Shown piece by piece: positions 1-9,722 of a stretch of 64,000 bases of DNA (the first letter of the stretch is position 1; each line of letters starts with the position of its first letter). Source of the DNA: Longispora fulva (GTDB taxonomy: Bacteria > Actinomycetota > Actinomycetes > Mycobacteriales > Micromonosporaceae). Below the pieces are notes generated by a model. The model did not search any database. It was not told the DNA's origin and saw only the letters and a program-made list of their open reading frames with translations. The translations under genes were made by a program, and so were the position numbers. The stretch lies in assembly GCF_015751905.1 (NCBI RefSeq), contig NZ_JADOUF010000001.1:2852001-2916000 (forward strand), read 5' to 3'.

Positions 1-735
1 AAGGAGCAGGCCGGCGCGGTTGCGGTCGACGAGTACGGCCCAATCGGCCGAGCCGGGTGGCAGTCCGACGCCGAGGAAGTTAGCGGCGCCGACGAGGTAC
101 ACGGCGGTGGTCAGCCGGGTGCCGGCGTCGGCGGCGAGGGGGCGGGCGATCTCGCGGGCGACGAAGACGGTGTACACCCGCCAGCGGGGCTCGCCCTGCA
201 GCACCATCGCCTCGGCGGCCGGCCGGCGGATCGCGTCGAGGGCCGCGGCCCGCACGAGGCGGGCGATGGCCGGGGTGTTGACGACGGCGACGACGGCGAC
301 GACCATGCCGACGCCGCGGTCGGTGAGCGAGGCGACGAGCAACAGCACGAGCAGCGCGGGCACCGCCAGCAGCACGTCCAGGGGCCGCATCGCCAGCTCG
401 TCGAGCCAGCGACGCCGGGTGCCGGCGGCGGCGAGTCCGAGAAGTGCCCCGGCGGCGTAGGCGACGAGGGTGGCGGCCGCGGCGAGCAGCAGGACGGAGG
501 TGCCGCCGCGCAGAACCAGGCCGAGGACGTCGCGGCCGAGGAAATCGGTCCCCAGCAGGTGACCGGGGCCCGACCAGTAGGCGATGTCGCGCCTGGTGGT
601 GGTCAACGGCGCGAACGCGGGGCCGGCGACGGCGACGGCGACCGGCACCGCGACGAGCGCCCCCGCGACCACGGTCCGGCCCCTCATCGTGCGCCTCCCG
701 CCGCGGCCGGGCGGGCGGCGGGCGGCCATGGGCAT
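1..735 (-). CDS. ABC transporter permease, DppC/NikC type (3' end beyond window)
   Basis: Second inner-membrane permease of a peptide/nickel/opine-type ABC importer. The frame is open from an ATG at 735 to the window edge (245 codons, no stop), so the C-terminus is missing. It reads as a short basic N-terminus, one membrane helix (about residues 24-42), a periplasmic stretch with the family motif GTDFLGRD, then several hydrophobic helices ending in the conserved NFLGVGLPPGSADWA block of DppC proteins. The start lies 11 nt after the stop of the DppB gene, so the two are co-transcribed; ATP-binding subunits probably follow outside the window. An ATG at 729 is an equally possible start. The family is certain; the substrate is inferred from the biosynthetic genes upstream in the operon. 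Confidence 0.9.
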   Translation of the reverse strand, partial: MPMAARRPPGRGGRRTMRGRTVVAGALVAVPVAVAVAGPAFAPLTTTRRDIAYWSGPGHLLGTDFLGRDVLGLVLRGGTSVLLLAAAATLVAYAAGALLGLAAAGTRRRWLDELAMRPLDVLLAVPALLVLLLVASLTDRGVGMVVAVVAVVNTPAIARLVRAAALDAIRRPAAEAMVLQGEPRWRVYTVFVAREIARPLAADAGTRLTTAVYLVGAANFLGVGLPPGSADWAVLVDRNRAGLLL

Positions 736-745
736 CGGCTCGGTG

Positions 746-1684
746 TCACCTGGTCACCTGCGCCCGGGGCGTCAGGCGGTAGGCGGTCAGGTCGGCTGCC
801 AGGTTCACGCAGATCACCACGGCCCCGACCAGTACGGTCGCGGCCTGCACGACCGGGATGTCGCGCCCGGACACCGCTTCGACGATCGCGGCGGCCAGCC
901 CGGGCACGGCGAACACGGCCTCCACGACCACGATGCCGCCGAACAGCCAGTCGACGGTGCGGGCGAGTTGCTGCACGGCGGGGACGAGGGCGTTGGGCAG
1001 CGCGTGTCGCAACACCACCCGCCACGGGGACAGCCCGTGCCGTCGGACGTGTGCGACGTACTCCGACGCCAGGGCGTCGACCATCCCGGCCCGGATCAGC
1101 CGGACCAGGGAGGCCGCCGACCGGGCGAACAGGACCGTCACCGGCAGAACCAGCAGAACGGGCGTCTGTGCCAGGGAACCGCCGACGGCGGTGGCGGGCA
1201 GCACCCCGAGCCACAGGGCGAACACGGCGACGAGGAGCACGGCGAGGGCGTATTCGGGGACGGCGTGCAGGGCAACGGTCGCGGCGCTGATCGCCCGGTC
1301 GACCCTGCCTCCCTCGCGCAGCGCGGCGAGCACGCCGAGCAGCAGCGACAGCGGGAGCAGCACCGCGAGGGTGACCCCTGCCAGCAGAGCCGTGGGCCCG
1401 ACAGCCGCGCCGAGCACGTCGCCGACCGGGCGGCCGGTGACCAGGGACGTACCCAGGTCACCGGTCACCAGATCCGTCAGCCAGTCGACGTAACGGTCCC
1501 ACGCCGGCCGGTCCAGGCCCAGGGAGTGCCGGATCACGGCGATCCTGGCCGGGTCGGGCAGATCGCCCGCAGCGACCACGGCCGCGTCGCCGGGTAGGGC
1601 CGCGGTGAGGACGAAGACGCCGGTGGCGACGACGAACAGCTGGGCGAGGCCGACGCCCAGCCGGCCGATGGTGTAGCGCAGCAC
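746..1684 (-). CDS. ABC transporter permease, DppB/NikB type
   Basis: First membrane permease (312 aa, the usual family length) of the peptide/nickel-type importer. A GTG at 1684 is chosen because the binding-protein gene stops only 5 nt upstream and the protein then begins, like DppB proteins, with MLRYTIGRLG and a first helix. About six membrane helices follow. The cytoplasmic EAA-like loop is visible as the YVAHVRRHGLSPWRVVLRHALPNA region, which contacts the ATPase. It partners the DppC-like permease that follows and the lipoprotein encoded just before it. Family assignment is secure. Import of a metal-ligand complex rather than peptides is an inference from the operon. Confidence 0.92.
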   Translation of the reverse strand: MLRYTIGRLGVGLAQLFVVATGVFVLTAALPGDAAVVAAGDLPDPARIAVIRHSLGLDRPAWDRYVDWLTDLVTGDLGTSLVTGRPVGDVLGAAVGPTALLAGVTLAVLLPLSLLLGVLAALREGGRVDRAISAATVALHAVPEYALAVLLVAVFALWLGVLPATAVGGSLAQTPVLLVLPVTVLFARSAASLVRLIRAGMVDALASEYVAHVRRHGLSPWRVVLRHALPNALVPAVQQLARTVDWLFGGIVVVEAVFAVPGLAAAIVEAVSGRDIPVVQAATVLVGAVVICVNLAADLTAYRLTPRAQVTR

Positions 1685-1689
1685 GTCGG

Positions 1690-3228
1690 TCAGGCCAGCC
1701 AGACCTTGTCGAAGCGGGCCCAGTCCAGGGTGTTCGGCGGGGCGTCGGCGACGCCGTTGAGCCCCGCGGACGTGCCGACGATCCAGTCCGCGAAACCCCA
1801 GACGAGCAGGCCGCACCTCTCGTGCAACTGGACCTGCATGTCCTTGTAGGCGGCGGTCCGCGCGGCGGGGTCGACTGTCGACTGCATCGTGCGGTACAGG
1901 GCGTCGAACTCTGGCGAACCCCACTTGGTCACGTTCTGCGGGGAGGTGGTGAGCAGTCGGGACGCCAGGTGGGTGTCGATCGGCATGGAACCCGACCGGT
2001 AGGAGGAGATCGCACCGCCGCTGAGGGTGTCCTTGAAGAAGGTGTCCTTGTTGCCCACGGCCACATCCAGGGTCACCCCGGCGGCCTTGGCCTGCTCGGC
2101 GAACAGGGTCGCGGCCTCCACGAGCCCGGCCCCGGCCGGCGCCGTCTGCAACGGCACCTTGAGCCCGTCGGCCCCTGCCTGCTTGAGGAGAGCTTTCGCC
2201 TTGTCGAGATCACGGGTGCGCTGGGGCAGGTCGGCGTAGTACTGGTAGCCCTTGCCGAACAGGTCGTTGCCTATCGAGCCCATGCCGCCCAGCACGGTGC
2301 GGACCAGCTCCTCGCGGTCAACCATGAGGCGGAACGCCGCGCGCACCTCCGGCTTGTCGAACGGTGCCCGGTCGAGTTTCATGGCGAACGCGTGCATGGC
2401 CGAGCCCGGCGCGCGGTGCACGGCGATGCGCTTGTCGGTGGCGTAGGTGCGGGCGCTGGCGGCGCTGAGGTCGTGCGCGTACTCCACCTGGCCGCCGACG
2501 AGCGCGTTGATCCGCGCGGTCTCCTCGTTGGCGGGCACGAACTCGACCCGGTCGAGGTGGGCGGGTGAGTCCCAGTACCCGTCGAAGCGGTCGACGACCA
2601 GCGTGCCGCCCGCCGCGAACGAGGCGAACCGGAAGGGTCCGGAACCTACGGGTCTGGTGAAGTCGGTCAGGTCCTTCGGCACGATCCACGACCCAAACGC
2701 GGTCGTCGCGAGGGGGAACTCCGACTGGGGCCGCTTGAGGACGAACTCGATGACCTGCGCGCTGACCGCGCTGCTGGCTTTGAGGTCGATCGCGTCGAGC
2801 TGCACGGCGGCACGCCTCGTGGCGGGCGCCGCCAGGATCCGGGCGTAGCTGGCCAGCACGTCGTCGGCGGTGACGGGCCTCCCGTCGTGGAAAGTGGCCT
2901 TGCGCAGCGTGACCCGCCACTTCGTGGCATCGGCGTTCGGCTCGAACTTCTCCGCCAGGCGCGGCACCGGCGACATGTCCGGTCCCAGGTCGGCGAGCTT
3001 GTCGAACAGGGCCTTGCTGCGCGCGCCGTCCACGAACAGGCTCGCAGCGTGCGGATCGAGGGTCTCCTTGGCCCCGGCGGTCTGAAACGCGGCGCGCACC
3101 CGGCCGCCCTTCTTCGGCGACGGGGCCCCCTTGGGGGTCCCGGCGGGGGTGGAGCAGCCGCCGAGGAGGACGCCGCCGGTCAGGGCGGCGCCACCGAGCA
3201 GGAGGCCGCGGCGAGTGGGAACGAACAT
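1690..3228 (-). CDS. ABC transporter substrate-binding lipoprotein, peptide/nickel (SBP family 5)
   Basis: Extracytoplasmic solute-binding lipoprotein of the DppA/OppA/NikA family (512 aa). The N-terminus has a twin-arginine-like PTRRGLLLGG stretch and a lipobox LLGGC with the lipidated Cys at about residue 25, followed by a Pro/Gly/Lys linker. The body has family landmarks such as TFHDGRPVTADDV and FALKRPQSEFP-like segments. The ATG at 3228 overlaps the methyltransferase stop (TGATG), implying translational coupling, so I reject a longer reading that starts inside that gene. Staphylopine-type and nickel-ligand importers use this same protein family, which suits uptake of a metal chelate made by the upstream enzymes; the ligand itself cannot be read from sequence. 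Confidence 0.9.
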   Translation of the reverse strand: MFVPTRRGLLLGGAALTGGVLLGGCSTPAGTPKGAPSPKKGGRVRAAFQTAGAKETLDPHAASLFVDGARSKALFDKLADLGPDMSPVPRLAEKFEPNADATKWRVTLRKATFHDGRPVTADDVLASYARILAAPATRRAAVQLDAIDLKASSAVSAQVIEFVLKRPQSEFPLATTAFGSWIVPKDLTDFTRPVGSGPFRFASFAAGGTLVVDRFDGYWDSPAHLDRVEFVPANEETARINALVGGQVEYAHDLSAASARTYATDKRIAVHRAPGSAMHAFAMKLDRAPFDKPEVRAAFRLMVDREELVRTVLGGMGSIGNDLFGKGYQYYADLPQRTRDLDKAKALLKQAGADGLKVPLQTAPAGAGLVEAATLFAEQAKAAGVTLDVAVGNKDTFFKDTLSGGAISSYRSGSMPIDTHLASRLLTTSPQNVTKWGSPEFDALYRTMQSTVDPAARTAAYKDMQVQLHERCGLLVWGFADWIVGTSAGLNGVADAPPNTLDWARFDKVWLA

Positions 3229-3986
3229 CAGGAGACCTTTCCGTGGGAACGTGCGATGACGTGCAGCCGGTCCCCCGCGAGGGTGGTGCCGGGCGGCGTT
3301 GCGGGGTGCCATGCGATGTCGGTGCGCGGGCCGGGGGTGTCGAAGCAGGCCAGTACCTCAAAGCCTGCGACGGTGAGGAAGTGGCGCAGTTCCTGGGGGA
3401 ACAGCAGCCGCCAGGCGGACCGGTCGACGCGGCCCTCGGGCTGCCAGATCCGTTCGCGGCGCAGGAGTTGCGCGGCGTGGTCGATCCACAGCCGGGTCGT
3501 GGCGGTGTGCCCGCCGACGGTGCGCTGCCGCGGCGCGCCGAGCAGTTCGTCGTTGCCGAGGAAGAACGCGCCGTTGCGCATCTCGGCGACGAACAGCCCA
3601 CCGGGGGCCAGGTGCGCGCGGCAGGCGGCGAGGGCGCCGGCGAGGTCGTCGTTGGTGTGGCAGTACAGCAGGGCACTGTCCAGGCAGGTGATCGCGTCGA
3701 ACGTCTCGCCCAGGTCGAAGGACTCGATCCGGCCTGGCACGAAGGTTCCCTGGTAGGTGGCCCGCGCGTAGTCCAGCATGGCCTGCGACGCGTCGAGCCC
3801 GACGACCGTGTAGCCGAGGGTGGCCAGGTGCCCGGCGTCGCGGCCGGTGCCACAGCCGAGGTCCAGCAACCTTCGGCCAGGTGCGCCGTAGTGCCGGATG
3901 ACTCCGTCGACGAACATCGCCGCCGTGTGCTCCGGGTCCGGGAAGGCTGCCTCGTAGAGGGCGGGATTGTCGGTCAACAGATTCAT
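3228..3986 (-). CDS. Class I SAM-dependent methyltransferase
   Basis: Cytosolic methyltransferase of 252 aa with a Rossmann fold. Motif I is LLDLGCGTGRD (about residues 40-50), the acidic end of strand 2 is VVGLDAS, and the D-containing motif IV region is FDAITCLDSALLY. The C-terminal half holds a Trp/Arg-rich insert that probably forms the substrate pocket. It overlaps both neighbours (ATGA with the MFS gene, TGATG with the binding protein), so it is made in step with the transporter genes. It probably N- or O-methylates the operon product or an intermediate; the acceptor is unknown. The fold is sure, the role inferred. Confidence 0.88.
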   Translation of the reverse strand: MNLLTDNPALYEAAFPDPEHTAAMFVDGVIRHYGAPGRRLLDLGCGTGRDAGHLATLGYTVVGLDASQAMLDYARATYQGTFVPGRIESFDLGETFDAITCLDSALLYCHTNDDLAGALAACRAHLAPGGLFVAEMRNGAFFLGNDELLGAPRQRTVGGHTATTRLWIDHAAQLLRRERIWQPEGRVDRSAWRLLFPQELRHFLTVAGFEVLACFDTPGPRTDIAWHPATPPGTTLAGDRLHVIARSHGKVS

Positions 3987-5167
3987 CGGCTACTCCCTGA
4001 GACGGTCGCCGTGACCAGCGCGCCGGCCCGGTCGAGCCCGGCGACGGCGACCGCGCAGCCGACCCCGAGCAGGGCGAGGGGCCCCCAGGCCCAGCCGGTC
4101 TGCCACAAGGCGCCCGCCCCGGCCGAGGCCCCGGCGGCGATGAGGCCGGACACGAGGTAGAACACGCCGAACTGGGTGCCGGGCAGGTCCCGGTCCCCGA
4201 GGCCAGCGACGAGGTCCATGACGAACGGGTTGGCGACGGCGTACCCGAGGGACAGCAGCAGCACGGAGACCGTCACCGCGCCGACCCCGACCGGACCGCG
4301 CTGGGCCGCGAGCGGCGGCAGGAAAGCCGCCCCCATCAGCGCCAGTCCCACGGCCACGGCATGGCCCGGGCTCCAGTGCTCCCGGCACCACGCGGTGATC
4401 GGCACCTGTAGCGCCAGGCTGAGCACGGTCGCCAGCAGGAACACCCCTCCGACGGCCCGGGGCGTACCGGTGGCGCGCTCGGCTGCGAGCGGAATGACGA
4501 GATACAGCTGCGTGTACAGGGCGAACACCCCGCTGGCCGCGACCGTGAATCCGAGGAACTCCCGGTGGCCGAGCACTCCCCGCCAGTCCCGCCACACCGA
4601 CTCCGGCCGGCGCGCGACGGACCGGGCGGGCAACGCGAACACCTGCGCGACGGTGAGCGCCGCGAAGATGCCAGCCGCGCCGCCGGCCACGACGGGGAAC
4701 CCGACCCCGATCAGGGCCGCGCCGAGCAGCGGTCCGGCAAGGGCCCCGGCGTTGGCGAACACGGCGAAGCGGGCGAACGCCTCCGCGCGCCCGTCGCCGG
4801 CCTCCACCGCCACGTACGCCCGGACCGCCGGGTTGAACAGCGCACCCGACAGGCCACTGAGGACGGCTGCCGCCAGGAGGCCCGGCAGGTTGTCGAGGAC
4901 CGCGAACAGGCCGAATCCGACGGTGCGCAGCGCGCAGCCCACGATGATGACGGGGCGCGGTCCCCACCGGTCGGCGAGGGTCCCGCCGAGCAGGAACAGG
5001 CCCTGCTGGCTCAGGGTCCGCACACCGAGGACCAGGCCGACGGCCGTGGCGGCCAGCCCGAGCCCGTCGAGGTACCCGGCGAGGAAGGGAACGAGCAGGT
5101 AGAAGCCGACGTTGACCCCGAACTGGTTGACCAGCAGCACCCGCAACGGCCAGGACATGGCCCTCAT
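3983..5167 (-). CDS. MFS transporter (probable exporter of the operon product)
   Basis: Major facilitator of 394 aa with about 12 hydrophobic helices. The loop 2-3 signature is GGTLADRWGPRPV. The start ATG at 5167 overlaps the epimerase stop (ATGA) and gives the normal short cytoplasmic N-terminus; a longer reading would run back into the epimerase gene. The stop overlaps the methyltransferase start in the same way. In staphylopine and other opine-metallophore operons an MFS protein exports the ligand while a Dpp/Nik-type ABC system imports the metal complex, and the same pairing is present here. Export function is inferred. Confidence 0.9.
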   Translation of the reverse strand: MRAMSWPLRVLLVNQFGVNVGFYLLVPFLAGYLDGLGLAATAVGLVLGVRTLSQQGLFLLGGTLADRWGPRPVIIVGCALRTVGFGLFAVLDNLPGLLAAAVLSGLSGALFNPAVRAYVAVEAGDGRAEAFARFAVFANAGALAGPLLGAALIGVGFPVVAGGAAGIFAALTVAQVFALPARSVARRPESVWRDWRGVLGHREFLGFTVAASGVFALYTQLYLVIPLAAERATGTPRAVGGVFLLATVLSLALQVPITAWCREHWSPGHAVAVGLALMGAAFLPPLAAQRGPVGVGAVTVSVLLLSLGYAVANPFVMDLVAGLGDRDLPGTQFGVFYLVSGLIAAGASAGAGALWQTGWAWGPLALLGVGCAVAVAGLDRAGALVTATVSGSSR

Positions 5168-6189
5168 CGCCGCCGCACCCCCAGCCCGGGGCTGGTGGGC
5201 TGGGTCAGGGTGCCGTCGGTGCCGCCGATACCCGTCCACGGGTCCTCGGCGAGTAGCAGGTGCCCGTCGAGATCGAGCCATCGGGCGAGCCCGGCCAGGT
5301 GCACGGCCGGGGCGACGGACAGGGTGCTCGATGCCAGGCAGCCGAGCATCACCTGCATGCCGAGCGCCTTGGCCGTCCGGGCCATCTCGACCGCGCCGCC
5401 GAGGCCGCCGCACTCGACGAGTTTGACGTTGACGCCGTGCACGAGGCCTGCGAGGCGACCCACGTCGTCCGCGGTGCGGGCGTCCTCGTCGGCGATGACC
5501 GGGATCGGGGACCGGGCCGCGACCCGGGTCAGGAGGGCCAGGTGGCCGTGCCGGACGGGCTGTTCGACGGCCGCGATCCCGTAGCCGGCCAGCGCGTCGA
5601 GGCGGCGACTGGCGGTGTCGGCGTCCCAGCCGCCGTTGGGGTCCAGCAACAAGGTCACGTCGGGGGCGGCGGAACGCACGGCGGCGACCACCGCCACATC
5701 GTCGTCGCGGCCGAGCTTGAGCTTCAGCACGCCGAAACCCCGCCCCACCAGCCGGGCCGCCTCGATCGCGGCGTCGCGCGGGCCGCGCAGTCCGATGGTG
5801 TACGCCGTGCGGGGACCGGCCACCGGCGGTGTCCCGAGCACCCGGTGGGCAGCGAGCCCGTTGGCCCGGCCGATCAGGTCGTGGGCCGCGGCGTCCACGG
5901 CGGCGATGACCGCAAGCGTGTCAGGATGGGTGAGTCGCAGTCCCGGCAGCGTGGCCCGCAGCTCCGCCTCCGATCGGCACGCCGCCACGACCGGGGACAG
6001 TCTGGCGAGGACGGTTGCGATGGCGGCCACGTCCAGCTGGTAGTACCGGCTCGTGACGACCTCGCCGTGCCCGATCACACCGTCGTGCTCGACCGCGACC
6101 TCCACGGCCTCGCGTTCGCCGGTGACACCCCGCGACGTGTGGAACGGTTCGCGCAGGCGCAGCGTCGTCACCGACCACGTGAGCCTCAT
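5164..6189 (-). CDS. Enolase-superfamily epimerase (dipeptide epimerase/OSBS-like)
   Basis: A 341-aa member of the mandelate-racemase/muconate-lactonizing subgroup. Visible catalytic elements: the KxK motif as LKLKLG, metal ligands in [13 protein letters not shown] and IADED, and the second catalytic lysine in NVKLVECGG. This set matches L-Ala-D/L-Glu-type dipeptide epimerases and o-succinylbenzoate synthases. No menaquinone genes are nearby, whereas an ATP-grasp ligase is, so epimerisation of a dipeptide-like or amino-acid-derived intermediate is more likely. It is coupled by 4-nt overlaps to the PLP enzyme upstream and the MFS gene downstream. The superfamily is secure; the substrate is unknown. 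Confidence 0.87.
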
Positions 6190-7241
6190 GCCGGGACCGC
6201 CCTGATCAGCGGGTCGCGGACGACCTGACATCGGGTCCAGCGATCCACCTCGGCCCCGTCCGGGCTGTCGACGTCGGCGGGCGCGGTGGCCGGCAGGCTG
6301 TCGAGGAGACCGTGCCGCGTGCAGTAGTCGTCGTCGAAGATGGTCTGCCAGTACCGGAGCGGGCCGTCGGGGAACACGGCCACCACCTGCTGGCCGGGGC
6401 CGGTGGCCGCGACCCAGGCGGCGACCCGGGCGACCGCGCCGGTGCTCCAGCCACCCGAGACGAACGCGTGCCGGGCCAGCCGCCGGCAGGTGTCCACGGC
6501 CTCGGCGGGCGCGATCCAGTGCACCTCGTCGAACGCGTCGTAGGCGACGTTGCGCGGGTAGATGCTGCTGCCCAGGCCACGCATCAGCCGCGGCCGGGCC
6601 GGCTGGCCGAAGATGGTCGAACCGACGGTGTCCACCCCGACCAGGCGCAACGCCGGGAACCGGTGCCGCAGCGCGCGGGCGATCCCGGCGCTGTGCCCGC
6701 CGGTGCCGACACTGCACACCAGGACGTCCACCGGCGACAGCTGAGCGGCCAGCTCGTCGGCCAGCGTCGCGTAGCCGGCCGGGTTGTCCGGGTTGCGGTA
6801 CTGGTCGGGCCAGTACGCGCCCGGCAGTTCCCGGCACAGCTCGAGCAGCCGCTGCCTGCGGGCCTCCTGCCAGCCGCCGGTCGGGTGCGGCTCGGTGACG
6901 ATCTCCAACCGCGCGCCGTGCGCCTGGAGCATGGCGCGCATCACCGGTTCCAACTCATGGTCGACCACCAGCACGACCGGATGCCCGAGGGCCGCCCCGG
7001 CCAGGGACAATCCGACACCGAGGGTGCCGCTGGTGGACTCCACGACCGGCGCGCCGGGCAACAGGTCGCCGCGCCGCCGGGCCTCGCGGAGCATGCTCAG
7101 GGCGGGCCGGGCCTTCATGCCGCCCGCGCCGAGGTACTCCAACTTGGCCCAGAAACCCGGGTGCGGTCGGGGCAACGGCGTCGTCACCCGCAGCACGGGG
7201 GTGTTGCCGACCAGATCGGCGAGACAGTCGGCGCGGTTCAC
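6186..7241 (-). CDS. Cysteine-synthase-like PLP-dependent enzyme (fold type II)
   Basis: Fold-type II PLP enzyme (351 aa) related to CysK/SbnA beta-replacement enzymes. The probable Schiff-base lysine is in [10 protein letters not shown]. The substrate loop is STSGTLGVG, where O-acetylserine sulfhydrylases usually have a T/S-SGNTG loop, so the canonical Asn is replaced. The phosphate-binding glycine stretch is [11 protein letters not shown]. In siderophore and zincophore pathways such enzymes make 2,3-diaminopropionate-type C-N bonds rather than cysteine. The GTG at 7241 overlaps the preceding stop (GTGA). No sulfur-assimilation genes are adjacent, which supports a specialised role. The nucleophile is unknown. 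Confidence 0.87.
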
Positions 7242-8029
7242 GGGCGTCCTTTCGCGGTGTAGTGGTGCAGGGTGCTCGGCCCGCCGTCGAGCCAGAAGAA
7301 CGGGTACGGCTCCGCCGACAGCGCGGTCACGCCCGAGCCGAGGAACTCCCGGGCGACGGCGCTGCCGGTCTGTGCGAACACGACGAACGGGATGCCGGCG
7401 TCGCGGGCGTGGGCGAGCAGCGGCTCGAAGGTGCCGTTGCCGAGCGTCATGCCGGACACCAGCAGCGCGCCGGCCCCGTCGAGCGCGGCCCGGGTGTGCA
7501 CGGGCTCGCCCCATTCGGTGAACCCGCCCTTGAAGTCGCAGGCCAGGTAGCCCATGCCCCGAGCGCGCAGCGCGTGCAGCAGGGAATTGACGACGCCGAC
7601 CACCGCGACCGGCCCGGAGACGTCGCCCGGCAGCAGGTCCACGACCGCGCGGGCCCGGGCCGTGGATTTCGCCAGGGAGTCACCGGCGGCAAGCACCCGG
7701 GCGACCGCATGCTGGTCGGAACCAAAGGGCCTGCGATCCATCAGGTACGCGTCCAGCGCCGCCACCCGCACCGCCCGCACGGGATGAGTCAGCAGATCCC
7801 GCACCGGCCGGCCGAGATGGGAAAACACGTCCTCCTCGGGCAACTCCCCCGGCTCGACGGAACACGCGCCGACCGCCGCGCCGACCCGGACGCACACCAC
7901 CTCGTTGCGGTACCCGGTGTGCCGGCCCTGGTGGTGCGCGCCCTGCCGGGTGCTGAACGCGACCGTCACCGGGGTGTCGAGTCCGTCCCCTTGCAGGGTG
8001 TGGGCGATCAGCTCGTCGACGCTACGCAT
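7238..8029 (-). CDS. DUF364/DUF4213-like Rossmann protein (putative heavy-metal chelation family)
   Basis: A 263-aa protein that I read as a DUF4213-DUF364 protein. The N-terminal part contains the [16 protein letters not shown] strand region. The C-terminal half is a Rossmann-like domain with [25 protein letters not shown] and a VVFAQTGSA strand. The family is annotated as putative heavy-metal chelation proteins, but no enzyme activity is established to my knowledge. Its start overlaps the end of the ATP-grasp gene by 8 nt, and its stop overlaps the PLP-enzyme start, so it is a core part of the operon. A substrate-handling or metal-handling role is plausible only by context. Confidence 0.75.
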
Positions 8030-9272
8030 AGTCGATCCCGATGCCCGCGACGAGTTCGGCGGCGAGAGCGGCGGCCTCCCGCGGGGTGCCGGCGACGGTC
8101 ATCACCCGGCCGGCGTAGCCGTTGTTGTCCCCGGTGGCGACCAGATCGCCGCCGGCGGTCGCGTCGATCTGCCACTCGACGACGTCGGCGTCGGCCGGCC
8201 GGTCCGCGCCCCGCACGGCCAGGACCCGGCCGGTCCGCTCGGGCACCACGAACCGGATCGCGGCCCCGCCGATCCCGGTGTCGCGGACGGCCAGGTCGGG
8301 GGCCACGCCGCGAACCACATCCAGGTACGCGCCCGGCAGGTCGATCCCGGTCACCCGCCGGACCAGTTCGGTGATGGAATTGCCGGCCGGCCGCAGGTTG
8401 ACCTCCACCACGTACGGGCCGCGCGGGGTCAGCTTGATCTCGGTGTGCGCCACGGCCAGGTCCACGCCGAGCGCGACCAGCGCGTGAAGCGCCGTTCGGA
8501 TCGCGGCGTCGCGGTGCTCGGCGGGCACCGGGGCGGGGAAGGCGTGGCCGGCCTCGACGAACGAGTCCTCCCCTGTGATCGTCTTGTCGGTGACCCCGAC
8601 GACGGTGGTCTCCCCGTCCACGGTCACGGTCTCGACGCTCACCTCAGGCCCGTCCAGGTACTCCTCGAGCAGCACCGTGGCGTCTCTGGCCTGGCCGCGG
8701 GCGTTGACCGGGAAGCCCGCGAGGGCGTCGAACGCCGCGCGGAGCTGGGCCTCGTCATCGGCGCGTCGGACGTACATGCCCGCGCACAGGTCAACGGGTT
8801 TGACGACGACCGGGTAGCCGATGTCCTCGGCCCCTCGGACGGCTTCCTGCCAGCGCAGCGCCGTGGCGAAGTTGGGCGTGGGCATGCCGGCGTCGGCCAT
8901 CGCGCCTCGGGCGAGGTGCTTGCGGTGCGTGCGGTGCACCGCCGCAGGGTCGCAGCCGGGCAGCCCGAGGTGCCGGGCGAGGGTGGCGGCGGTCTCCAGG
9001 TAGTAGTCACACGAGCTCAGTACCCCGTCGAAGGGGGTGTGGCGGTGTGCCGTCTCGACGGCCGCGAGCACGGTCGCCGGGTCGTTGGTCTCGGCGGTGA
9101 GCACGGCCTTCGCCCCGAGGAGAGGGTGCTGGCCGGGGCCGTGCCAGGAGCGCAGGTAGTGGTCGAGGTCGCGGGTGAGGAACGTGAACTCGTGGCCGGC
9201 TTCGGCGATCGAGCGGGGCAGGAGCCGGCTCATCGCGCCGACCCAGCTCTCCACGACCAACAGGTGGGCCAT
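8022..9272 (-). CDS. ATP-grasp ligase, first gene of the metallophore-like operon
   Basis: ATP-grasp carboxylate-amine ligase of 416 aa. A Rossmann-like N-terminal domain (MAHLLVVESW...) is followed by the ATP-grasp domain: the ATP-binding lysine strand in YPVVVKPVD, the EEYLDGPEVSVE strand, and the metal site in HTEIKLTPRGPYVVEVNLRPAGN. A C-terminal domain closes the protein. Such enzymes activate a carboxylate as acyl phosphate and join it to an amine. The ATG at 9272 has a GGAG ribosome site 7 nt upstream. It is the promoter-proximal gene, about 50 nt from a Fur-type palindrome, so the whole operon is probably shut off by metal. The substrates are unknown. Confidence 0.9.
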   Translation of the reverse strand: MAHLLVVESWVGAMSRLLPRSIAEAGHEFTFLTRDLDHYLRSWHGPGQHPLLGAKAVLTAETNDPATVLAAVETAHRHTPFDGVLSSCDYYLETAATLARHLGLPGCDPAAVHRTHRKHLARGAMADAGMPTPNFATALRWQEAVRGAEDIGYPVVVKPVDLCAGMYVRRADDEAQLRAAFDALAGFPVNARGQARDATVLLEEYLDGPEVSVETVTVDGETTVVGVTDKTITGEDSFVEAGHAFPAPVPAEHRDAAIRTALHALVALGVDLAVAHTEIKLTPRGPYVVEVNLRPAGNSITELVRRVTGIDLPGAYLDVVRGVAPDLAVRDTGIGGAAIRFVVPERTGRVLAVRGADRPADADVVEWQIDATAGGDLVATGDNNGYAGRVMTVAGTPREAAALAAELVAGIGIDYA

Positions 9273-9312
9273 TTCTCGCTCCGTCTCGGCAGGTGACTCG
9301 GGGTTGCGTCAG

Positions 9313-9342
9313 ACCCTAGACTGAAATGATAATCATTTGCAA
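9313..9342 (-). promoter_or_regulatory. Probable promoter of the metallophore-like operon
   Basis: On the minus strand a TTGCAA (9342-9337) and a TAGGGT (9318-9313) are separated by 18 nt, a fair match to a vegetative -35/-10 pair. This places the transcript start near 9305 and leaves about 33 nt of leader before the ATG at 9272. The spacer holds a Fur-type palindrome, so bound repressor would exclude polymerase. Confidence 0.5.
9324..9338. promoter_or_regulatory. Fur/Zur-type operator (7-1-7 palindrome)
   Basis: AAATGATAATCATTT is a perfect inverted repeat of 7+1+7 bases in otherwise GC-rich DNA. Its central 13 bases equal the core of the classical Fur box. It does not resemble the actinobacterial DtxR/IdeR iron box. 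It lies inside the putative promoter of the ATP-grasp operon. A Fur-superfamily repressor (Zur, Fur or Nur) is the likely reader; which metal is sensed cannot be told from the site alone. A 10-base direct repeat (CTAGACTGAA) flanks it at 9316-9325 and 9343-9352. Confidence 0.75.
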
Positions 9343-9352
9343 CTAGACTGAA

Positions 9353-9722
9353 CGGGTGACCCCGGCGCGTCGATCGGAGAGGTTGATGTCCATACAGGAC
9401 GAAGAGTTGAAGCGAGGCTAGGCCTCACACGAGATCAGCACAAGAGGGCGTCACCATTACATATTCGTTATTTGATGACATTCGACTTCGTGCGTCACCC
9501 TCACCGTCCTGTCCGGCGGCGCGTGGTGGTGGGCCAGTCCGGTGGCCGCCGCCTGCCCGCTACAGGCCGGCGGTGGCCAGCGCGTCGGCCCGGTCGGGGT
9601 AACCGACGGCGGCATCCAGTCCCGGGGCAACCGGCCAGCGGCGGCTGTGCTGATTGTCAGCCGGGCACGTTTGTGCGTGCGACACTGCCTGTGACCAGGA
9701 TTTTCGTCCGCAAGGAGGCCGT
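9353..9722. other. Intergenic stretch between divergent operons with one tiny ORF
   Basis: No recognisable gene. One 11-codon ORF (9386-9421, plus strand, MSIQDEELKRG) follows a GGAGAGG sequence at a good distance, but it is too short to judge; it could be a leader peptide or the stump of a deleted gene. The rest (9422-9722) holds no protein I recognise on either strand. The AAGGAGG at 9712-9718 is the ribosome site of the next gene. Confidence 0.5.

Follow-up and report, generated by a model that had tools for sequence, protein, structure and literature searches.

A Zur-box operon of Longispora fulva predicted to make and recycle an amino-acid-derived zinc metallophore, and its sister clade under cobalamin riboswitches

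Analysis of a 64,000-nucleotide stretch of the Longispora fulva genome (the window; bases 2852001–2916000 of the 8.68-Mb, one-contig genome) revealed an operon of 11 genes on the minus strand, nine of which lie tightly packed within window positions 1–9272. We consider it probable that its genes serve to synthesise an amino-acid-derived zinc metallophore, secrete it, and take it up again, and that the synthesis differs from that of staphylopine. A preliminary description, made from the letters of the window, had suggested a metal-regulated metallophore of this kind, and the operator, the regulon, and the comparative analyses support the suggestion, the metallophore product itself being predicted from the genes. 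They also refine it. Zur most likely serves as the regulator and zinc as the metal, the pyridoxal phosphate (PLP) enzyme is SbnA-like, and an ATP-grasp enzyme, an epimerase, and a methyltransferase appear to tailor the product of a core formed by this PALP-family enzyme and a DUF364 protein. Literature searches for the operon's gene set found no paper describing it.

A Zur-box-like operator, TGCAAATGATTATCA, was found at 9327–9341 on the minus strand, with the first gene beginning about 55 bp downstream. It had been described as a Fur-type operator. The palindromic operator is indeed present, as the palindrome AAATGATAATCATTT at 9324–9338 overlaps it and shuffled sequences averaged 0.04 matches at three or fewer mismatches, but it goes beyond a generic Fur box and fits actinobacterial Zur motifs. 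It matches 14 of the 15 positions of the S. coelicolor Zur motif tGaNNatSatNNtCa, as given in a passage of PMC5472717, and has one mismatch to TGANAANNNTTNTCA and also one to the znuA-derived actinobacterial Zur motif quoted in that passage. Two same-direction copies of CAGTCTAG flank the box (window 9295–9360).

A search with the strict box pattern, allowing one mismatch, found nine sites in the whole genome and one with the reversed-pattern control. Three of the nine precede the window operon, znuA (PF01297, 256.9 bits), and a COG0523-type gene (CobW_C, 65 bits). A search of the genome returned two proteins of the Fur family; by reading of their neighbours, one is encoded directly past znuA and a ZnuB-like gene, and the other before a catalase gene. 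Thirteen relatives from the same family that carry the operon have a near version of the box at two to eight places per genome (controls, 0–2). Around these near-boxes we examined 17 loci, eight of which have a CobW-type gene, two ZnuA (one weak, 36%), one a ZnuB-like gene (27%), two a window-type operon, and four none of the tested genes. At the sequence level, the operon shares its Zur box with known zinc genes, as expected of a member of the Zur regulon. This suggests that the operator is most likely a Zur (zinc) box, with Zur as the regulator and zinc as the metal.

A genome scan with a 15-sequence DUF364 alignment gave at least 474 confirmed encoded relatives, all locus types together, of which the best 80 were kept and the operon's own genes traced in them. 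Among 200 genomes of the family, 14 had a DUF364 relative, and among 396 of the phylum, 6 did, the own genome included. The best 80 loci, some of them cut by contig ends, come from Streptomycetaceae, Pseudonocardiaceae, Micromonosporaceae, Actinopolysporaceae, and Frankia. DUF364 and PALP were present in all 80, the major facilitator superfamily (MFS) exporter in 78, ATP-grasp and the epimerase in 76 each, the substrate-binding protein (SBP) in 74, each permease and the ATPase in 72, the methyltransferase in 70, and a GNAT gene in the neighbourhood in 35. The gene-order comparison that the preliminary description had proposed showed an identical order and strand for ten genes in 68 of the 80, which exceeds chance. 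One locus (L093) retains only ATP-grasp, DUF364, PALP, the epimerase, and GNAT. In a locus from the genus of the window (L051), no epimerase gene was found, and there is little space for one between PALP and MFS; the MFS and binding proteins of this locus are nearer to those of the window (66% and 71%) than are those of most other relatives compared.

The operator is conserved as well. In the 250 bases ahead of the ATP-grasp gene, the closest match to the box in each of 76 relatives was scored; it had zero, one, two, three, or four mismatches in 7, 46, 16, 6, and 1 loci, respectively. Boxes with two or fewer mismatches were thus present in 69 of the 76, against 20 of 1520 random control windows drawn from these loci.

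Four of the 80 loci (L083, L105, L110, and L111) lack the ATP-grasp enzyme, the epimerase, and the methyltransferase together, and PALP, DUF364, and MFS stay together in this minimal clade. Judged from gene presence, PALP and DUF364 look like the shared core, and the three missing enzymes look like add-ons. No box within one mismatch was found in the three minimal loci read (L083, L105, and L111). Instead, Rfam identified a cobalamin riboswitch upstream in all four, at 91–101 bits (gathering score 31.5). The L105 protein was next used as query against 397 genomes of the order; 54 had matches, the own genome included, and 35 loci were read, three of which repeat earlier ones (L205, L215, and L217). 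By gene content, nine were minimal, nine were of the full type, one was a hybrid (L220), 15 were of a third type, and one was other. All nine minimal loci have the riboswitch (85–103 bits) and none has a box within one mismatch. In total, the riboswitch was found in 13 of 13 minimal loci (12 distinct, as L212 and L213 are nearly identical) but in none of 16 ATP-grasp-type loci (15 distinct, one being the hybrid) and none of nine third-type loci tested. This dichotomy, like the gene content, the gene order, and the conservation of the operator, was observed directly.

In the DUF364 tree with a midpoint root, the minimal and full types were sister groups (98/93 and 98/94, the hybrid counted as full) and the third type stood apart (100/100). 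In the PALP tree, the minimal type was less supported (73/100) and the full type was not one group. Two types occur side by side in three genomes, minimal and full in G833 and G844, and minimal and third in G881; these three are the genomes with both loci read.

Eight genomes checked for their B12 context have 6–10 cobalamin-riboswitch matches each, 61 in total, three of which are under the gathering score. At 20 riboswitch loci outside the metallophore operons, the next large open reading frame (ORF) was scanned, giving CobN in two, CbtA in one, MetE in three, ribonucleotide reductase in five, Peripla_BP_2 in four, FhuF_C in one, SBP_bac_5 in two, and no family in two. The two riboswitch-led SBP_bac_5 genes (L248 and L255) belong to G844 and G881, and their products share 62% and 67% identity with the binding protein of the minimal type. 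The minimal loci of these genomes (L212 and L211) show no importer. Because the separate SBP_bac_5 genes have their own cobalamin riboswitch, the enzymes, the exporter, and the importer of both genomes are, by sequence, in one B12 regulon though split. The L111 and L213 loci also show no importer; their genomes were outside the eight of the B12 check. On the simplest reading, the minimal clade looks as if its ligand collects cobalt. It may be tied to corrinoids instead of free cobalt.

The third type, found in 15 of the 35 loci, has a DUF364 and an SbnA-like PALP that are both distant; in L060 this PALP scores 125 bits with SbnA. FecCD/FecE/FecB-type importer genes were present in 12 of the 15, and a GHMP-type kinase in 11. 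Loci of this type include L060 (12185–18307), L224, L226–L229, L231, L235, L237, and L238. The hybrid L220 has ATP-grasp, MFS, the GHMP kinase, and a Fec-type importer. A kinase beside a PLP enzyme would suit a phosphorylated substrate, and PALP is nearest to the SbnA model in all three locus types.

These results allow a wider proposal, to which we give a little less than an even chance. In it, an actinobacterial metallophore family would be built on a two-enzyme core of the SbnA-like PLP enzyme and DUF364. The bare core would be a dedicated cobalt carrier switched by the B12 riboswitch, and the Zur-controlled zinc carrier would differ from it by ATP-grasp, epimerase, and methyltransferase enzymes that retune the ligand. 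This would give DUF364 a first role, namely in the synthesis or the unloading of a metal ligand.

All nine genes of the preliminary description were confirmed in their places on the minus strand. However, the operon does not end there; it continues past base 1 to an ATP-binding cassette (ABC) ATPase and a GNAT gene. Two of the genes form the core. The DUF364 protein (7238–8029) belongs to PF04016 by both family score and fold, sharing its fold with Dhaf4260 (3l5o) and PH1506 (3npg) at 15–16% identity, which are members of a family without an assigned reaction; a metal-transport gene context was proposed in a passage of PMC2954201. The SbnA-like PLP enzyme (6186–7241; PF00291, 191.6 bits) has TIGR03945 SbnA as its best NCBIfam match, with 250.6 bits against a curated cut-off of 349.95. 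At least 95% of 81 sequences conserve its GGMKAR motif, and the same holds for its ESTSGTLG motif.

The first of the add-on genes encodes an ATP-grasp enzyme of the L-amino-acid-ligase type (8022–9272; PF13535, 68 bits; LAL_C2, 45.9 bits), with BL00235 (3vot, E 1.1e-24) as a PDB relative. The methyltransferase, which is S-adenosylmethionine-dependent by family (3228–3986; PF13649, 65.4 bits), has CalS10 (6uk5, E 2.5e-18) as its best PDB match and amino-sugar N,N-dimethyltransferases among the next ones; by sequence, its nearest solved structures are amine N-methyltransferases. Among solved structures, the ligase is nearest to dipeptide-forming L-amino-acid ligases, BL00235 and BacD being examples, as would be expected if the ligase, epimerase, methyltransferase, and efflux pump made a dipeptide antimetabolite or signal whose zinc regulation were happenstance. 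We regard this as very improbable. The sister clade lacks ligase, epimerase, and methyltransferase together yet has PALP, DUF364, and MFS, and a dedicated importer is usually retained.

The third add-on gene encodes an enolase-superfamily racemase (MR_MLE) of the dipeptide-epimerase type (5164–6189; PF13378, 131.9 bits). Its best NCBIfam match is DgcA (222.4 bits, below the cut-off of 400), and Ala-Glu epimerases are also close. The motifs K.K, LDPNG, VEQP, ADED, NvKL, and DLDGH, which presumably hold the catalytic lysines, the metal ligands, and the DxD motif, are conserved in 76 sequences. This likeness to DgcA and Ala-Glu epimerases, together with a Dpp-type importer, might indicate a salvage operon that imports and degrades peptides such as murein dipeptides or D-amino-acid conjugates. 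But a ligase, a methyltransferase, and an exporter are unsuited to catabolism, and metal-linked control elements occur in both clades; we find salvage slightly less credible still than an antimetabolite.

An exporter and an ABC importer beside the biosynthetic genes had been noted before, and both were found again. The MFS exporter (3983–5167, ATG at 5167; PF07690, 100.7 bits) gave an MdtH-like NCBIfam match of 144.2 bits, under the cut-off of 469. The substrate-binding lipoprotein (1690–3228, ATG at 3228; SBP_bac_5, PF00496, 239.4 bits) is of a Dpp/Nik-type importer and, by reading, has a twin-arginine-like start and a lipobox. In the domain and NCBIfam scans the MFS and SBP queries carried 4 and 1 extra N-terminal residues. 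ABC permease 1 (PF00528, 105.9 bits) extends from 746 to about 1684–1693. Its start is uncertain: there is no standard start codon at 1693, and the nearest GTG, at 1684, is about 5 bases past the preceding stop. ABC permease 2 (1–735; PF00528, 62.9 bits) continues outside the window, where a two-domain NikD/NikE-like ABC ATPase (L009 10391–12043) and a GNAT gene, the last of the operon (L009 9870–10394), complete it. Overlaps between consecutive genes with checked start codons are 8, 4, 4, 4, 4, and 1 bases, and the gap between the permeases is 10 bases.

The importer raises the question of the metal. The binding protein scored 139.7 bits with the NikA-type model NF045468 and 51 bits with the CntA model NF047575, and the best NCBIfam models of the ATPase are of the nickel type (NikE and NikD), all of these scores being under cut-offs. 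The cobalamin riboswitch of the sister clade indicates that the ligand family may also serve cobalt. The system could therefore be of the same kind, with a ligand for nickel, cobalt, or several metals and Zur as only one input. We judge this unlikely, though less so than the other two alternatives, as the Zur-type box is consistent in the ATP-grasp-type loci and none of those tested has the riboswitch.

For the zinc metallophore that we favour, we infer the reactions, the product, and the metal from sequence, and the steps would be as follows. When zinc is scarce, Zur would leave its box and the operon would be expressed, as the site and the shared regulon suggest. According to a passage of PMC12751119, O-phosphoserine is joined to Glu by SbnA, to Asp by aspergillomarasmine synthase, and to Ala by Fda4, and there are precedents for such conjugates being kept and being cleaved. 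Like its closest characterised family, the SbnA-like enzyme would join O-phosphoserine or a similar activated serine to an amino acid to give an N-(2-amino-2-carboxyethyl)-amino acid; its likeness to SbnA points to a 2,3-diaminopropionate-type backbone. Because the operon has no SbnB-type cleaving enzyme, the conjugate is probably retained and, as in marasmines, forms the chelating core. DUF364, being paired with PALP in all 80 loci kept, probably works on this core or on the complex that it forms with the metal. The ATP-grasp ligase would then add an amide-linked residue, the epimerase invert a centre of the dipeptide-like intermediate, and the methyltransferase N-methylate it, in an order that we propose from the enzyme types. 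Ligase and epimerase are jointly absent from the four minimal loci and jointly present in 76, which fits an epimerase acting on the ligase product; L051, with a ligase and no epimerase, and the hybrid L220 speak against a strict dependence. Finally, judged by family and layout, MFS would export the ligand and the Dpp/Nik-type ABC system would return the zinc complex.

Several observations weigh against this reading. Six of the nine box sites in the genome, read as ORF lists only, have no evident zinc gene, and the window box carries its one mismatch at a conserved position. Seven of the 76 relatives, including the Frankia locus L128, have three or more box mismatches, and the looser S. coelicolor motif gave a weaker contrast at one mismatch or fewer (32 of 76 loci against 8 of 1520). 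PALP scores below the curated SbnA cut-off, and in the TSGN loop it has a Thr in place of the Asn of SbnA, which may mean a different substrate. The NikA-type models fit the binding protein better than the CntA models do, and L071 and L093 have neither exporter nor importer beside the enzymes.

Beyond the GNAT gene, an ArsP-type permease and a His-rich TIGR03943/DUF1980 protein are encoded on the same strand (L009 7908–9868). The permease starts some 0–370 bases past the GNAT gene. The pair, which is possibly another metal-linked one, had no match in the loci of the 80 relatives. Large modular-synthase-like ORFs, polyketide-synthase-like by reading, lie beyond the operon, 11–19 kb left of the window (L156).

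Secreted ligands of a few chemical classes are established means of zinc acquisition. The locus points to another class, widespread in Streptomyces and relatives, as its DUF364 relatives of all types indicate. To our knowledge, though no literature search aimed at cobalt metallophores was made, the operon of the sister clade may be the first for the synthesis, export, and re-import of a cobalt-specific ligand, the riboswitch being what indicates the metal. With exporter, importer, and core enzymes in common, the two clades are set apart by three tailoring genes, which offers a direct test of a change in metal preference, and the question of DUF364 becomes testable with two purified enzymes.

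Among known systems, the aspergillomarasmine A synthase is alike by description: it is cysteine-synthase-like and makes a metal-chelating serine–amino-acid conjugate without free diaminopropionate (a passage of PMC12751119). That system is fungal, and the passage names no DUF364, ligase, epimerase, or Zur control for it. The staphyloferrin B pathway contains SbnA, the best NCBIfam match of the window PLP enzyme; no SbnB and no NIS (siderophore) synthetase were found among the operon proteins. The [S,S]-ethylenediamine-disuccinate (EDDS) type also has a cysteine-synthase-like PLP enzyme and is likewise Zur-controlled, according to passages of PMC6103462, PMC4993170, and PMC9252823. However, its partners are an ornithine cyclodeaminase and a diaminopimelate decarboxylase, as named in one passage of PMC13206832, and neither was found among the window proteins or the scanned downstream genes; the window operon has DUF364, ATP-grasp, and the epimerase.

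The staphylopine/pseudopaline (cnt) loci are alike in metal-starvation control, in the small amino-acid ligand expected, and in having the exporter and, in staphylopine-type loci, a Dpp/Nik-type importer in the same locus. The preliminary description had reported nicotianamine synthase (NAS) and opine dehydrogenase to be absent, and our searches agree: no NAS domain (PF03059, as in CntL) was found among the nine window proteins (E ≤0.01; the whole genome was not searched for NAS), and PF10100, the CntM-type dehydrogenase, had no match in the genome. As a positive control, the same search was positive in one (G001) of 200 family genomes, with 635.7 bits (L157). In G001, no relative of DUF364 was found at E 1e-15; the two routes thus both occur in the family, in different species. 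The PALP/DUF364 class of loci would escape a survey based on CntM, such as the one described in a passage of PMC7438024. In place of the cnt enzymes, the window operon has the PALP/DUF364 core together with ATP-grasp, epimerase, and methyltransferase.

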